A stretch of DNA of 40,736 nt, taken from positions 1-40,736 of the IMG/VR virus record IMGVR_UViG_3300027608_000068. One strand, 5' to 3'. Position 1 is the first letter of the stretch. Each line of letters opens with the position of its first letter. The notes under the pieces are model-generated. The model did not search any database. It worked only from the letters and a program-made list of their open reading frames with translations, and was not told the origin of the DNA. This DNA comes from a virus. The translations under genes and the position numbers were made by a program. Of this stretch, positions 4,553 through 40,390 are shown piece by piece.

Positions 4553-6484
4553 TTAGATATTAGAGAGAGTAATGAGAGAACCTACGTTACCCCAAGGTAT
4601 TTGGTTATTTATATCATTTGAGTCGGCTTGTTCGATCGTATAATTTGCATAAGTGTGCATTTCAGTGCCTGGATCAAAGAAGTGACCAATACTCTGGTAC
4701 CTCTTTACTAGCATTTCAGGATGTGCAGAATTGGCCGAAACAATGGGTATTTGATCAAAGAGAAGAGTAAAGTGAGTGCCCTTGAATACTGTTGAATCAT
4801 AAACCGCAGTGACTACACCAAGCTTATGAGGACTGCGCGTACTGGCAGCAGTAAAGAGACTCCGAAGATATGCGGTGCCATCGTTCTTCTTTGGAAAAGG
4901 AATCATCGCCTGAGGCACCACAAAAGACTCATTCCAGACCATTGTGGCAGTGCCAATGGTACCAGCCTCAATGGTACATACCCATGCAGTATTTCGATTC
5001 TGAGTGGATCCATGAGGAATAAACACGAATGCTGAAACCAGTTCATCACGAGTATCAGCATCGGTAGTACGAGTCCATGCTCCGGCGTTCACCTGATAGA
5101 TACCATTCTGAGAGGTGGTTGTTTGATTCTTTACTAAGACCCGGTCTCCTGCAATCACGGCAAGACCGTCAATTGTCTGAGGTGCACTTAGAGTAATATT
5201 CGCCGTTGTTGCCGCAACACAGCGTTCTTTTCTGCTGAATGGCTCGCCGGAAAGACCATCAGTAATACTCTCGGCAAACCCAACAAAAATCGGTACTGGC
5301 AAATCCTCGTCTGAAATTAACCCGGGCTGGTGAGTATGCATCGAACTATAGATTCGAACATCGTCTCTTCCGTCAATAATATCTAACAGTTTAATGTTTA
5401 AATCTTCAAGCGTAAGATCGACCAGGATACCATTCACATATTGTTTACCGGATAACCATAAATCTAGATCCTGGATAATATCAACTGGAAAGGCATTTAC
5501 GTTTTCAATAAAGATAACGATCTGACCAAAGAAAATAAATCCAGCAGGATGGACCAAACGATTAAATTCGTTTTTCCAAGTATCCGTATTATTGCCCGTC
5601 TGAATTACATAGGAAAATTGCTGATAAAAATACGAATCCTGAAGCTTTATTGTATCCGAAAGAAATCCTTTGTTATCAACATAACCACCCGGAAGAGGTG
5701 CATCAGCCGCGGTCACACCCTGTACACCTTGAATGCCTTGAATGCCTTGTACACCCTGAGTCACAGCTTGAATAAATTGAATACCTTGTACACCTTGAAT
5801 AAATTGAATACCTTGTACACCTTGAGTCACGCCTTGTACGCCCTGAATTCTATCTGAGATGCCTTGAATGCTTTGAATAAATTGAATGCCCTGTACACCT
5901 TGAGCTACGCCCTGAACGAATTGAACACCTTGAACGCCCGTGACTTGCTGAATGCCCTGAACGCCCTGAGTTACACCTTGAATTGCTTGTACTCCTTGAA
6001 TGCCCTGAGATCCCACAAGAGTATTACCAACAAATTTTGGCCTCTCCGCGGTTTCATCCCAATTACCAGAAGATGGTATCAGCATATCCTCGCGAGGATA
6101 ATATACCTGTACATTATCCTGAAAAAGGATTTTAAAAAATAGGCGAATGGAATCAACTGAGCCTCTCACAGAATAATACTGGAGTAGGCTTTTGTATAGT
6201 TTTACCTTGTCAATCTGTACGTTTTTAGGAATTGCCGCTGCAATTTCTTTTTGTAAAAGGGCCAGATATTTTTCATCAACAAGGTCAATATCACGAGAAT
6301 TGTTAATCGAATTAATCTCATAGCTCGGATTCCCGGACAAATTCATGTAGTCATAATAACTCTTTAGCAGCTCAATAAGCGCTGCTGACTTATCACGAAG
6401 ACCCGAAGGAATTAAGGATTCTACGCGAGAAGTCTCTTTTCTTTTCCGACGAGTGCTTGCAAGAGTTTCAATTGAATACGCCAT
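4553..6484 (-). CDS. Baseplate wedge protein at the gp7 position, with collagen-like triplet insert
   Basis: This 643-aa protein lies between gp6 and gp8, the place of gp7 in T4, but it is much shorter than T4 gp7 (1032 aa) and I cannot confirm homology. Residues 1-155 are helical and contain LLQYYSVRGSVDSIRLFFKI, a signature seen at the N terminus of wedge proteins in marine T4-like phages. Residues about 158-258 are almost pure [G/F/S/A][V/I]Q triplets. Residues about 415-520 carry a module common in phage tail proteins (ANITLSAPQTIDG, then AGDRVLVKNQTT and NGIYQVNAGAWTR). Expected role: a baseplate component with an exposed repeat spacer. The ORF is intact and in step with its neighbours. 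Confidence 0.7.
   Translation of the reverse strand: MAYSIETLASTRRKRKETSRVESLIPSGLRDKSAALIELLKSYYDYMNLSGNPSYEINSINNSRDIDLVDEKYLALLQKEIAAAIPKNVQIDKVKLYKSLLQYYSVRGSVDSIRLFFKILFQDNVQVYYPREDMLIPSSGNWDETAERPKFVGNTLVGSQGIQGVQAIQGVTQGVQGIQQVTGVQGVQFVQGVAQGVQGIQFIQSIQGISDRIQGVQGVTQGVQGIQFIQGVQGIQFIQAVTQGVQGIQGIQGVQGVTAADAPLPGGYVDNKGFLSDTIKLQDSYFYQQFSYVIQTGNNTDTWKNEFNRLVHPAGFIFFGQIVIFIENVNAFPVDIIQDLDLWLSGKQYVNGILVDLTLEDLNIKLLDIIDGRDDVRIYSSMHTHQPGLISDEDLPVPIFVGFAESITDGLSGEPFSRKERCVAATTANITLSAPQTIDGLAVIAGDRVLVKNQTTTSQNGIYQVNAGAWTRTTDADTRDELVSAFVFIPHGSTQNRNTAWVCTIEAGTIGTATMVWNESFVVPQAMIPFPKKNDGTAYLRSLFTAASTRSPHKLGVVTAVYDSTVFKGTHFTLLFDQIPIVSANSAHPEMLVKRYQSIGHFFDPGTEMHTYANYTIEQADSNDINNQIPWGNVGSLITLSNI
5711..6013 (-). 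repeat. In-gene triplet repeat coding (G/F)(V/I)Q units
   Basis: A stretch of about 300 bp encodes roughly 33 tripeptide units of the form X-(V/I)-Q, such as GVQ, GIQ and FIQ. The GV(T/A)Q and SIQGISDRIQ interruptions shift the register. On the DNA the plus strand reads as recurring cttgaat, cttgtacac and cctgaat units. Blocks of 30-40 bp recur almost unchanged, so slippage or recombination could change the length. The Phe-containing units break the Gly-every-third rule of a collagen helix. Confidence 0.9.
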
Positions 6485-10646: not shown

Positions 10647-12178
10647 TTAAAAACCTCAGTTGAATATGCATCGGTATTTGCGCGGACATCGCAATAATAC
10701 TGTTTTTCAAATTTATGAATAACCGAAGTTATTAAATAGTATCCGCTAAACATTTTTTGATTTTCGACGTCGTCTTTTTTATCCAATTCGTTTGTTGGCT
10801 TAAACGTCGATCTCAATTGTAATTTAACGATTTTACCCGAATGAAAATCCAAATCTCCAGTAATAGTAAAGTCATGAGAGATAAACTGCATATTTTCATT
10901 CACTGAATTTGCAACATTTATAGATTTATTTCTTGTTGCACTATGGTAGTTATTATTACTTCCGAGTGATTTTCCGTTTAACGAAATGTAATTAACATTT
11001 GCATCACTGAACTGCGAAAGTGTTAATCCACCGGCATTTATTTGTGCACTGATTGATTCAAATGCCCGTATCGTGTTAGCTATTTCGGCTTTATTAAATG
11101 GATTTTTTCTTAAATTAAATTTATCAGTAGTTACATCCGTTTTTGAGGCTTTGTCAACTACTCCACGTGCTTCAGGGAAAAATGCATGAGAAAGAGGTGA
11201 ATTTGTTCCGATTTTTGCCATATTTGGAAACTCCACACCATAATTAAAATCAAGAGTTTCAATTTTCTTTGACGAAATATTCACATAAACGGATTTTGAA
11301 GCATAGGCTCCATTTATGCTAGACAGATATTTTGATATTCCAATATTTGAAGCTAAATTTAAAATGCGGCTCTTTCTTTGTTTAAAATCCTCTGCGGTTC
11401 CAACTCTGTATTGAAAAAACTGACCGTCGGTGTATTCTCTAATGTTGTTCTCCTTTGCCTTCGCATTCATATCTGTATGAGATTCAATATGAATTTTTCC
11501 GTCAAGAGTTTCATAGCAATACCATGGGCTTCCGTGTGAATCATAACAACGCCGAAGGACCCACAGAATAGCGTCTATTGGATTTAGATTTGGAACAATA
11601 AATGAAACTAATGGCGAAGATTGTGCACTTTGAACAATATCTGATTCCTTTACTCCTAAATCCTCGGTTAAAGTATCCTTAATAAATTTAGCCATTGTCC
11701 CAGTAAATGCCCTTGAAATCCTTTTAAGTTTTGATAAGTAAATATGCCGCGATACGCCCTTTATAGTATAAACCTCAGTTCTATTCTCCATTTTTCCATA
11801 AAGAGGATACTCAGTGACAAAAAACATTCTGCTTATTGTTTTAGGTTTAGGTTTTTCTCTAGAAGCAGAATCTGCCGGTTTTGTGCCTGCGGTCTCTGCA
11901 TCGGGTTCAGGCTCTGCCCCCTGTGTTAGATTTACTGTAATAGTCTCCTGACCTGTTAACTGGCCAATTTCAAAAAAATTAATAGAATCTTTTATATTAA
12001 TCGAAAGAATCAGGCCTGCATGATATATGCTCTCGGTAATTGAAAAATCGGTTTTTAAAGTATTTAAATCGTATGTCATGCCCATATGATTTTCTAAAAC
12101 AATACTTGTGACCCGATATGCTTCTGGAATATGAAGATTATCGCCAAGTAAATTTTCTAAATTTGCCGTCTTACTCAT
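10643..12178 (-). CDS. 27: Baseplate hub subunit (gp27-like)
   Basis: The 511-aa product lies immediately upstream of gp5 and overlaps its start by 4 nt (ATGA type). In marine T4-like phages this is the place of the hub protein that carries the gp5 needle. Recognisable parts are an N-terminal barrel-like region (VTSIVLENHMGMTYDLNTLK, ITESIYHAGLILSINIKD), a low-complexity acidic/Pro stretch at about residues 90-120, and a central segment IVPNLNPIDAILWVLRRCYD with GSPWYCYETLDGKIHIES, typical of gp27/hub proteins. It is longer than T4 gp27 (391 aa). It should form the trimeric ring at the end of the tail tube. Confidence 0.8.
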   Translation of the reverse strand: MSKTANLENLLGDNLHIPEAYRVTSIVLENHMGMTYDLNTLKTDFSITESIYHAGLILSINIKDSINFFEIGQLTGQETITVNLTQGAEPEPDAETAGTKPADSASREKPKPKTISRMFFVTEYPLYGKMENRTEVYTIKGVSRHIYLSKLKRISRAFTGTMAKFIKDTLTEDLGVKESDIVQSAQSSPLVSFIVPNLNPIDAILWVLRRCYDSHGSPWYCYETLDGKIHIESHTDMNAKAKENNIREYTDGQFFQYRVGTAEDFKQRKSRILNLASNIGISKYLSSINGAYASKSVYVNISSKKIETLDFNYGVEFPNMAKIGTNSPLSHAFFPEARGVVDKASKTDVTTDKFNLRKNPFNKAEIANTIRAFESISAQINAGGLTLSQFSDANVNYISLNGKSLGSNNNYHSATRNKSINVANSVNENMQFISHDFTITGDLDFHSGKIVKLQLRSTFKPTNELDKKDDVENQKMFSGYYLITSVIHKFEKQYYCDVRANTDAYSTEVFK

Positions 12179-24275: not shown

Positions 24276-24366
24276 TACAATCCTACACAAACTCCCAGAA
24301 AAGTAAACAACTAAAAAAGTTCTAAGTGATTGATAGCCAACACTTTTCTAAGTGATTGGCCACCAA
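24276..24366 (-). promoter_or_regulatory. Early-promoter module, copy A, with two upstream direct repeats
   Basis: The -10 TAGGAT (24280-24285) and -35 GTTTAC (24303-24308) are 17 nt apart, and the -10 lies 6 nt from the ATG at 24273. Bases 24276-24309 are identical to 34819-34852 (34 nt). Upstream of the -35, CTAAGTGATTG(A/G) occurs twice (about 24321 and 24345, plus strand). Confidence 0.85.
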
Positions 24367-24651: not shown

Positions 24652-24713
24652 ATCATACTGTAACTCCACGAAAAGTAAAACAATAAGAATGTCCTAAGTG
24701 ATTGATAGCCAAT
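24652..24713 (-). promoter_or_regulatory. Early-promoter module, copy B
   Basis: The -10 TATGAT is at 24652-24657 and the -35 TTTTAC at 24675-24680, 17 nt apart. The upstream CTAAGTGATTGATAGCCAA element (plus strand) matches copy A. The module separates the CHASE2-cyclase gene end from the small early gene. Confidence 0.75.
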
Positions 24714-28618: not shown

Positions 28619-29452
28619 TTATTTTGCTGTTGTGATAGTGCTATTAATGTTGGATTGAATTGGTTCTTTGACAAATTTCCAAAGGCCTTCAGCCTCCCCT
28701 AATTTTACAATTTCAATGACTGCCTGATCAATAGCGCTCCGAACGGCAATGCCATTCGGTTCATTTGCAGTGATACCTAGCTCTGACTCAATCGGGGTTG
28801 TTCCATGATCATAAAATCGAAAAAGGTTTCCAGAGACCGCCACACTTGTAATGGTCTTTGTAACCGCAACGCTCAGAAGGACCTCTCCAGTCTGAACACT
28901 TATAAGACGCAACGAAATAGTTACAACGTCTTTCCGGTATTGTGTACTTGCCGAAATTCCAAGAGCACTGGCACCGGCTCCTCCGGTAAGGATATTTGTG
29001 TCATATCCAATAATGCCACCCTCCGCGATGATGCCCGCAAAGAGCATGGGAGAAAGCTTTTCAGCATTCTTTCCAATAAAAGTATCACGAGTCTGAGCAA
29101 TGAGCTGTCTTTCTTTTATGATGTTATCAAGACTTGCTCGTTCAAGTACCTGAAACCATTTACCCTTTCCAGCGGCGCGAAGGCCATCAATGAGCCAACT
29201 CTCTGCACCCTGAGTAACTGCCGAGGAGAAGGTGGCGTAGGCATCCACAGTTTTTCTCTGTCCCGTTTTATCCGCAAATCCGTAGACTGCAATCGTCATG
29301 CGTTGGCCATCCAGCGCGGGAAGACTCTCGAGCTGTTTTGCTAGGGGAGATACCTGCGCGCGGGGTGCCTCTAGGATTCCTGGTTTTGTTGCAACAGATG
29401 CACAACCAGAGAACCATAACGCAGAGAGTGTGAGTATGAATACACGCAGCAT
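28619..29452 (-). CDS. csgG: CsgG curli secretion pore lipoprotein
   Basis: This is 277 aa, the same length as E. coli CsgG. A lipobox (WFSGC, Cys17) sends it to the outer membrane. The match is clear: LERASLDNIIKERQLIAQTR, GIIAEGGIIGYDTNILTGGA, GISASTQYRKDVVTISLRLI, VQTGEVLLSVAVTKTI and FRFYDHGTT. In E. coli, Tyr51, Asn55 and Phe56 form the pore constriction. The corresponding loop here (VDAYATFSSAV) keeps an aromatic pair, Tyr72 and Phe75, but has Thr in place of Asn. It forms the nonameric outer-membrane channel for curlin. CsgF, its partner, is encoded 6 nt upstream. Confidence 0.95.
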   Translation of the reverse strand: MLRVFILTLSALWFSGCASVATKPGILEAPRAQVSPLAKQLESLPALDGQRMTIAVYGFADKTGQRKTVDAYATFSSAVTQGAESWLIDGLRAAGKGKWFQVLERASLDNIIKERQLIAQTRDTFIGKNAEKLSPMLFAGIIAEGGIIGYDTNILTGGAGASALGISASTQYRKDVVTISLRLISVQTGEVLLSVAVTKTITSVAVSGNLFRFYDHGTTPIESELGITANEPNGIAVRSAIDQAVIEIVKLGEAEGLWKFVKEPIQSNINSTITTAK

Positions 29453-34236: not shown

Positions 34237-34478
34237 TAGCTGGCCTCCTGATAATAGCCATTCTTGCGAGCCTCTTTTAGATCCTCGAGAGCTTCATTCT
34301 CGGCGGTCCATGTCTTAAATTGCTCCACGGTGTAAACACCATCCTTAGCAAGATCGGCAACTGTCAGTGCACTTATACAATAAAAAGTAGCACCTCGAGC
34401 AATGCACTGAGCCTCAAAGGCTGCATTCCGATCGGTGAGATATTGTTCAAGTTGCTGCTGTTGTTTGTTGTTATTCAT
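34236..34478 (-). CDS. Hypothetical small early protein
   Basis: The 80-aa protein has a Gln-rich start (NNNKQQQQLEQYLTDRNAAF) and a helical body (AKDGVYTVEQFKTWTAENEA, LEDLKEARKNGYYQEAS). No family is recognised. It has a module-type early promoter whose -10 lies 6 nt before the ATG, and it is coupled to the ligase gene by a one-base stop/start overlap, so it leads the ligase transcription unit. Confidence 0.7.
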   Translation of the reverse strand: MNNNKQQQQLEQYLTDRNAAFEAQCIARGATFYCISALTVADLAKDGVYTVEQFKTWTAENEALEDLKEARKNGYYQEAS

Positions 34479-34484
34479 ATTAGT

Positions 34485-34545
34485 ATCCTACACAATTCTT
34501 GGAGAAAGTAAACACCTAAGAATGTCTTAAGTTGTTGATTATCAA
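34485..34545 (-). promoter_or_regulatory. Early-promoter module, copy C
   Basis: The -10 TAGGAT (34485-34490) and -35 GTTTAC (34508-34513) are 17 nt apart, and the -10 is 6 nt from the ATG at 34478. The upstream part (GTGTTTAC preceded by ACATTCTTAG on the minus strand) is shared with copy D. Confidence 0.85.
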
Positions 34546-34552
34546 TGGAGCC

Positions 34553-34816
34553 TTAAACTTTATTGCTCAATACCCACTTGGCGCGATTGAGCGTCTGACG
34601 AGCCTCTTCATTGAGACCTCTTTCGATCATCTCTTGTGCATCGGAGATCATAGACATGGCAAGTAGCTTGTTGCCGCCTACAAAGGGCGAGTCCTTATCT
34701 TCCGGGTACAAGAACTGTTCATCGTACCACTCGCCGATGGCGGGTACTCCGAACATTTCCGTCATACGTTGCGTTACGATTGGTAACATGGGGTTGGTAG
34801 CAGTGCTGTTATTCAT
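34553..34816 (-). CDS. Hypothetical small early protein
   Basis: The 87-aa protein has TNPMLPIVTQRMTEMFGVPA, IGEWYDEQFLYPEDKDSPFV and a C-terminal helix, ERGLNEEARQTLNRAKWVLS. No family is recognised. Its promoter is module copy D with the -10 6 nt before the ATG, which predicts a leaderless early mRNA. It is a single-gene unit, since module copy C follows immediately. Confidence 0.7.
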   Translation of the reverse strand: MNNSTATNPMLPIVTQRMTEMFGVPAIGEWYDEQFLYPEDKDSPFVGGNKLLAMSMISDAQEMIERGLNEEARQTLNRAKWVLSNKV

Positions 34817-34822
34817 ACTACA

Positions 34823-34886
34823 ATCCTACACAAACTCCCAGAAAAGTAAACACCTAAGAATGTCCTAAGTTGTTGCATATCAACAA
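34823..34886 (-). promoter_or_regulatory. Early-promoter module, copy D, with hairpin
   Basis: The -10 TAGGAT (34823-34828) and -35 GTTTAC (34846-34851) are 17 nt apart. Upstream, GTTGTTG/CAACAAC (34867-34885 region) forms a 7-bp hairpin. A promoter joined to a stem-loop is the layout of the mobile early-promoter/stem-loop cassettes described in T4-type phages. Confidence 0.85.
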
Positions 34887-34897
34887 CCCCTAAAAAT

Positions 34898-38832: not shown

Positions 38833-39063
38833 TTAGCCGTCGTTTCCGATTGCGGCCACGGGGCATCCTTCCAATGCCTCCATGCACATCAACACTCCAG
38901 CCTCTGTTGTGGGCTGAGTATGAACATAGGAGAACCCACCGTCTTCTTCACGAGTAAAGAAGTCAGGAGCAGTCTCTCGGCAAAGGTCACAGTCGATACA
39001 CTGAGTATCAACGTAGAACTTTCCTAATGCATTTTGTGAATATCTATCTGTAGGATTTGCCAT
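38833..39063 (-). CDS. 4Fe-4S ferredoxin
   Basis: The 76-aa protein holds Cys22-x2-Cys25-x2-Cys28 ([20 protein letters not shown]) and Cys67-Pro ([10 protein letters not shown]), the ligand set of a single [4Fe-4S] cluster. Cys60 is an extra cysteine. It is cytoplasmic and acidic. It differs from the plant-type 2Fe-2S ferredoxins of cyanophages and, as I recall, resembles bacterial ferredoxins of the [14 protein letters not shown] type seen in Verrucomicrobiota. It may support reductase chemistry during nucleotide synthesis or radical enzymes. It lies between tRNA-Ser and tRNA-Asn, alone in its cluster. Confidence 0.9.
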
Positions 39064-39748: not shown

Positions 39749-39824
39749 TGGAGCCTCCGGACGGATTTGAACCGACGACATCCAGTTTACAAAACTGGCG
39801 CTCTACCAACTGAGCTACAGAGGC
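39749..39824 (-). tRNA. tRNA-Thr (TGT)
   Basis: The 76-nt gene includes encoded CCA. The acceptor is GCCTCTG/CGGAGGC with U73, the anticodon stem is CCAGT/ACTGG with loop TTTGTAA (TGT), and the T arm has GGTTCAAATCC. Confidence 0.93.
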
Positions 39825-39941: not shown

Positions 39942-39969
39942 TGGTCTTCTCCTTAAGGAGGTTAGACCA
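39942..39969 (-). other. Hairpin after the tmRNA 3' end
   Basis: TGGTCT/AGACCA (6 bp) and an inner CTCC/GGAG with TTAA loop. It starts 10 nt past the tmRNA CCA and lacks a U run. A 3'-processing signal is likely. Confidence 0.45.
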
Positions 39970-39979
39970 AAATGTAAAT

Positions 39980-40337
39980 TGGTGGAGGTGAGGGAAGTTG
40001 CATCCCTGTGTTCCGAAACTTTCCTCGCAATCACTACAGGTTTAGTATTGTGTGATACGATGGGCTCATTACAATACATCAGAGCACGTCGTTCAAGACA
40101 GTGATTCTAAATGTTCTACAATCTTGAGTCTGGAACATTCGAACTCGCAAGATGACGGAATCTTTCCTCAGCGAGTATCAAGAGGATTCCGACGTCTCAC
40201 TACTGTTTAGGCAGCGAGAGCATATTCAGCATTGAAGTTGCCGATTACTGTTTTTGCATGCACTTTTAAGGTTGTGACATACTTTTAACCACCTGCGATT
40301 TTGAAGTCTGCTCCAGAGTCGAATCTAGAACACCCCC
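39980..40337 (-). ncRNA. ssrA: Transfer-messenger RNA (tmRNA), one-piece
   Basis: The 358-nt gene has all parts of a tmRNA. The 5' end GGGGGTG pairs with the 3' CACCTCC, followed by A and CCA. The conserved TTCTAGATTCGAC lies next to the 5' acceptor strand. A T arm, AGGGA/TCCCT with loop TGCAACT, precedes the 3' acceptor strand. The tag ORF reads AKTVIGNFNAEYALAA and stop, starting at a GCA resume codon about 40263 and ending about 40212, and EYALAA is a typical ssrA degron end. A long helix (AATC-GCAGG with CCTGT-AGT-GATT) joins both halves. It should rescue stalled ribosomes during infection. It has its own early promoter. Confidence 0.95.
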
Positions 40338-40360: not shown

Positions 40361-40390
40361 ATACTATACTACTTATATGTAAATGTAAAC
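40361..40390 (-). promoter_or_regulatory. Early promoter for tmRNA
   Basis: The -35 GTTTAC is at 40385-40390 and a TAGTAT -10 at 40361-40366 (18-nt spacing). Predicted initiation is about 17 nt before the mature tmRNA 5' end. Confidence 0.7.

Follow-up and report, generated by a model that had tools for sequence, protein, structure and literature searches.

tmRNA releases stalled ribosomes and adds a tag to the unfinished proteins on them. One-piece bacterial tmRNAs of the E. coli and B. subtilis type (RF00023) carry acceptor and T arms, the sequence GAUUCGAC, a G3–U70 pair, four pseudoknots and a tag reading frame with a stop-codon hairpin, and their elbow combines G18 with U55. The tmRNA of alphaproteobacteria (RF01849) is permuted and made in two pieces; its Rfam consensus reads UAGGAUCGAC with the T loop GGCgGUA, hence A18 with G55, usually with G54 as well. 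The change U342→G has been noted in the Caulobacter tmRNA (PMC1168896), which the title of Keiler 2000 describes as functional. Among phages, tmRNA genes have been reported in 402 of 18,146 genomes (PMC9004378), and an earlier list (PMC4131195) includes Mycobacteriophage Bxz1 and Bacillus phage G, which have other hosts and are likened to the present case by gene presence only. The Methylophilales phage Melnitz (PMC9004378) is a related T4-like phage with a curli-type csgG gene and a two-piece tmRNA adjoined by a glutamine riboswitch.

Using the RF00023 covariance model (cmscan), we found a single full-length tmRNA on the minus strand of a virus sequence of 40,736 nucleotides (IMG/VR record IMGVR_UViG_3300027608_000068, analysed over its whole length and called the window below). 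The match scores 87.0 bits (E = 1.4e-32) against a gathering score of 47 bits and spans positions 1–374 of the 374-position model, and a second search placed the gene at the same coordinates (Table 1). A first-pass annotation made from the letters had proposed a complete one-piece phage tmRNA at this place, which the full-length match bears out; the strand, which it had not given, is minus. Of the two programs it had suggested as checks, the Rfam search was clearly significant, and ARAGORN did not report the gene. The order of the parts is collinear from GGGGGUG to CCA and not permuted as in the two-piece families RF01849 and RF04321. The same annotation had considered its proposal refuted if the two halves could not pair; instead, the acceptor stem GGGGGUG/CACCUCC forms 7/7 pairs, with the G3–U70 pair and encoded ACCA of alanine identity. 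G3–U70 is present in all 317 tmRNAs scored in this work. The T stem forms 5/5 pairs, and a pairing check indicated that all four pseudoknots and the stop-codon hairpin are able to form.

Table 1 Features of the window tmRNA gene and its flanks (positions are those of the window)
Feature	Positions	Strand	Basis or remark
One-piece tmRNA gene (ssrA), 358 nt, 3' CCA encoded	39980–40337	-	RF00023 match; 97.8% identical copy in virus contig L003
D-loop A in place of G18 (E. coli tmRNA G13)	40326	-	Sequence; covaries with nt 55
Pseudoknot 1	40256–40294	-	Stems 6/6 and 6/7 pairs
UAAUC immediately 5' of the resume codon (E. coli UAGUC); helps set the tag frame	40243–40247	-	Sequence, alignment
Tag frame GNFNAEYALAA; resume codon GGC 40240–40242, stop UAA 40207–40209	40210–40242	-	Covariance alignment; homologous tract of relatives
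Helix 5 hairpin with tag stop codon	40195–40219	-	8/8 pairs
Pseudoknot 2	40143–40191	-	Stems 7/7 and 6/6 pairs
Pseudoknot 3	40093–40139	-	Stems 7/7 and 6/6
Pseudoknot 4	40045–40092	-	Stems 4/4 + 4/4 and 7/7
T-loop G in place of U55 (E. coli tmRNA U342)	40001	-	Sequence; covaries with nt 18
Sigma-70-like promoter candidate, TTTACA-17-TAGTAT, 24 bases upstream	40361–40389	-	9/12 matches; weak
Hairpin GGTCT..AGACC directly downstream; possible processing or stop signal	39943–39968	-	Inspection only
tRNA-Thr(UGU), nearest tRNA gene downstream	39749–39824	-	One of seven tRNA genes, same strand

The window tmRNA has one near relative, a copy in the IMG/VR virus contig L003 that is 97.8% identical along the gene, and no DNA similarity to GenBank phages was found. 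The tag, acceptor, D loop and T loop are identical in the two copies, and the differences lie mostly in loops or preserve pairs; in pseudoknot 3 the stems are kept despite the differences, the second being shifted by one pair. The gene forms the 5' edge of a phage tRNA cluster, whose seven tRNA genes follow it on the minus strand and which also includes a ferredoxin gene (Fer4_13, 38833–39063). Promoter-like sites are about as frequent as in shuffled sequence (2 found, 1.6 expected). The RNA adds to the phage tmRNAs already known, with its own tag and an A18–G55 elbow.

The T loop of the window tmRNA reads UGCAACU, and its D loop reads CUAGAUUCGAC where the consensus has CUGGAUUCGAC. The G at the place of U55 had already been noticed in the first pass and is real, but the matching change in the D loop had been missed. 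Judged from the sequences compared here, G55 is not damage but part of a paired substitution with A18, and this second change probably preserves the elbow of the folded RNA. This sets the window tmRNA apart from the RF00023 type, with its G18–U55; it shares A18 with G55 with the consensus of RF01849 but is in one piece and retains U54. Covariation assigns A18–G55 to the D/T-loop pair 18–55, from which we infer the three-dimensional contact. In suppressor tRNA selections, Steinberg's group reportedly found position 18 to be G with U55 and A with G55, a rule that the window tmRNA fits at the sequence level. A 2002 study of the D/T-loop interaction in tmRNA (Barends et al., FEBS Lett 514:78, cited in PMC7912444) reportedly showed by mutation that the corresponding G13–U342 contact in E. 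coli tmRNA matters for SmpB function.

The coupling extends well beyond this phage. When phage and bacterial one-piece tmRNAs are scored alike, U55 occurs with G18 in 186/186 cases and G55 with A18 in 128/130, the two exceptions having G18 (L364) and C18 (L515). Some scored loci are duplicates, and without near-identical ones the counts are 162 G–U and 113 A–G. Left out of the scoring were L468, a G55 locus that was not scorable, and the spurious finds L107 and L315. When virus contigs were scanned with letters 54 and 55 both left open, 118 tmRNA 3' ends were obtained among the matches listed: 110 with UU, seven with UG and one with UC. Where a 5' end could be read, almost every UU case shows GG in its D loop. 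The seven UG cases comprise five with AG, one with GG (again L364) and one without a readable 5' end. A slightly wider pattern with G55 fixed matched 18 stretches of virus contigs, and bacterial genomes yielded at least 119, from Elusimicrobiota, Patescibacteria, Clostridia and Bacilli MAGs, Anaerolineae and others; the idea that G55 is specific to phages was therefore dropped. In samples from three phyla drawn by RF00023, without conditioning on nt 55 and with best-scoring loci only, G–U and A–G numbered 28 vs 2 in Elusimicrobiota, 16 vs 8 in Patescibacteria and 15 vs 0 in Chloroflexota. Thus, the elbow pair 18–55 in tmRNA is either G–U or A–G, with almost nothing between, in phages and several bacterial phyla. 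In the literature searched, most subscription papers lying outside that scope, we found no earlier notice of this A18–G55 coupling.

In a tree of 278 tmRNAs built with nt 18 and 55 masked, about 25 changes of nt 55 and about 26 of nt 18 were counted. Only five independent pairs fall on well-supported branches; they agree in nearly every case, and none is opposed (p = 0.0625). The formal test on the tree thus reaches its limit, yet the pattern as a whole is very strong. A single origin of A18–G55 in phages is not supported, as the family tree has three changes of nt 55; as many as three branches of this family may have acquired the pair, the window's branch having no settled place. L364 (3' end near 10866–10921) shows the rare unmatched state G18–G55 inside a clade of A18–G55 phage tmRNAs, and its T stem is altered on both sides (CCGGG/CCCGG). 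The alpha-type two-piece tmRNAs at L625–L638, like the RF01849 consensus, mostly have the T loop GGCRGUA with A18, in which G54 accompanies G55 and a G stands at 58.

In all 11 bacterial genomes tested, the G55 tmRNA is the sole tmRNA over the cut-off; given this and U342→G in Caulobacter, the G55 variant very probably works. Since G55 cannot become pseudouridine, such tmRNAs would have no need of TruB at nt 55. What looked like a flaw thus becomes a rule, and the choice between G–U and A–G yields a prediction about the SmpB-dependent step that can be put directly to the test.

The tag frame is open from the resume site UAAUC–GGC to a UAA stop inside the 8/8-pair hairpin, and the tag is read as (A)GNFNAEYALAA rather than the AKTVIGNFNAEYALAA given in the first pass, in which the frame was right and the start was not. 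Two observations place the start at GGC: the GCA that would open 'AKTVI' shares bases with the 3' strand of pseudoknot 1, and both the covariance alignment and the UAAxC–GGC/GCA tract in relatives point to GGC. In related phages the homologous tract ends in AAAC and is followed by GGC or GCA; E. coli tmRNA has UAGUC–GCA where the window has UAAUC–GGC. The glycine resume codon, which occurs also in Bacillus anthracis (PMC1168896), sets the window tmRNA apart from the E. coli and B. subtilis type. The tags that ARAGORN reports in relatives, GINKALSNFFGFAEEMPLAA (in two phages), GISNVIEAIFGTRTEELQLAA, GISNMLKSLFAVNQQEAQLAA and AKTNKVKSYFAKMSRKVSETFSSEFEALPLAA, are quite unlike one another, and all end in LAA. 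The pattern GN.N.EYALAA-stop has no match among 84,980 GTDB species genomes, and the window tag therefore looks phage-specific. For the same reason, the proposal that comparing tags would reveal the host group had to be abandoned: a YALAA C-terminus is widespread, the full pattern is without a match, and we name no host. Two virus-contig tmRNAs of 471–472 nt (L104, 1501–1971; L106, 1501–1972) have a tag frame open for about 45 codons (AENYISDLLAEAEYIFNNASEFLGDVVDSVVDFFNGAEQEYALAA) and the odd T loop AUCGUAU. To our knowledge, this frame exceeds every known tag.

The left part of the window encodes T4-type baseplate genes, and the phage is T4-like. The nearest matches to its gp6-like protein are in Melnitz and Pelagibacter phage HTVC008M (~37%), and close relatives in IMG/VR share 93–100% in gp6 and 50–81% in a 682-aa protein. 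A full one-piece tmRNA is present in 5/50 related records. Four of these five have it on the strand of the 682-aa gene and ~15–19 kb upstream of it; the corresponding distance in the window is 13 kb. Melnitz and four further relatives (G125, G126, G127 and G129) instead match the permuted tmRNA of alpha type. Searches of the 40.7-kb window, of L003 and of 20 longer related records turned up no SmpB gene, and the window tmRNA therefore probably relies on host SmpB; most of these records are fragments, as is the window, beyond whose ends an SmpB gene of the phage could lie.

In our view, these features are best explained by ordinary trans-translation, performed by a working phage-encoded tmRNA with host SmpB, alanyl-tRNA synthetase (AlaRS) and proteases, a reading in which we place high confidence. 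Once transcribed, the RNA would be charged with alanine by host AlaRS via G3–U70, bound by host SmpB and EF-Tu, and carried into ribosomes stalled on broken mRNA. Translation would then move to the tmRNA's own frame at GGC, adding (A)GNFNAEYALAA, whose C-terminal LAA would send the product to ClpXP-like proteases. The elbow would be held by A18–G55 instead of G18–Ψ55, an alternative also seen in many bacterial lineages and other phages, and the phage would benefit because ribosomes are freed during the breakdown of host and phage mRNA.

A functionless host tmRNA, passively captured or in decay and with the T-loop G as a mark of that decay, might also account for a T loop that departs from the usual UUC, for the long tree branch of the window tmRNA and for its being missed by ARAGORN. 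We regard this as highly improbable, since all helices are intact in two copies ~2% apart, the T-loop change is matched by a D-loop change seen across phyla, and relatives keep a tmRNA gene. Nor does it seem likely that the RNA is a decoy, blocking trans-translation in the host by titrating its SmpB or AlaRS: there is a precedent in the mycobacteriophage DS6A kind of tmRNA, which has the tRNA-like domain only and strongly inhibits tmRNA, perhaps by titrating SmpB (PMC4131195), but a decoy needs none of the mRNA part, resume site, stop-codon hairpin and four pseudoknots kept here, and the tags of relatives stay open and end in LAA.

Trans-translation could be refined by supposing that a tag unlike the host's changes what becomes of proteins stalled in infection, which might, for instance, be degraded more slowly or without an adaptor. 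The absence of the tag pattern from 84,980 GTDB species, the strong differences among tags of related phages and the often long tags of viral tmRNAs would fit, and the window tag may be an altered degradation tag; we nevertheless find this refinement doubtful, because the C-terminal YALAA is the ordinary degradation signal and fast drift of tags could be neutral. It is similarly speculative that phage tmRNAs follow evolutionary rules of their own, the group having repeatedly rebuilt its tmRNA (one- or two-piece, G18–U55 or A18–G55, new tags), so that host SmpB would serve a phage RNA with no need of Ψ55 and with a phage-chosen tag.

Few phage tmRNAs were thought to be known when this gene was first annotated, a view at odds with the 402 phage genomes cited above and with at least 119 candidate stretches in our IMG/VR pattern scan. 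ARAGORN found 111 of 129 viral U55 tmRNAs and 0/14 with G55 (the window included, as well as one duplicate of L003). G55 by itself is not a general cause, as the program finds 78/131 G55 tmRNAs overall. Counts of phage tmRNAs based on ARAGORN are probably too low for the G55 class.

Several further elements were observed in these phages. A csgG-type curli pore gene lies at 28619–29452 of the window, as in Melnitz-like phages. A phage contig with an A18–G55 tmRNA (L402) also carries a group I intron at 4556–4770 (RF00028, 106.7 bits). Similar stretches of 50–90 bases, possibly promoter regions, recur in the window (24280–24342, 24662–24712, 34468–34548 and 34810–34895), and the same family is present in L003 (4907–4995 and 5248–5328).
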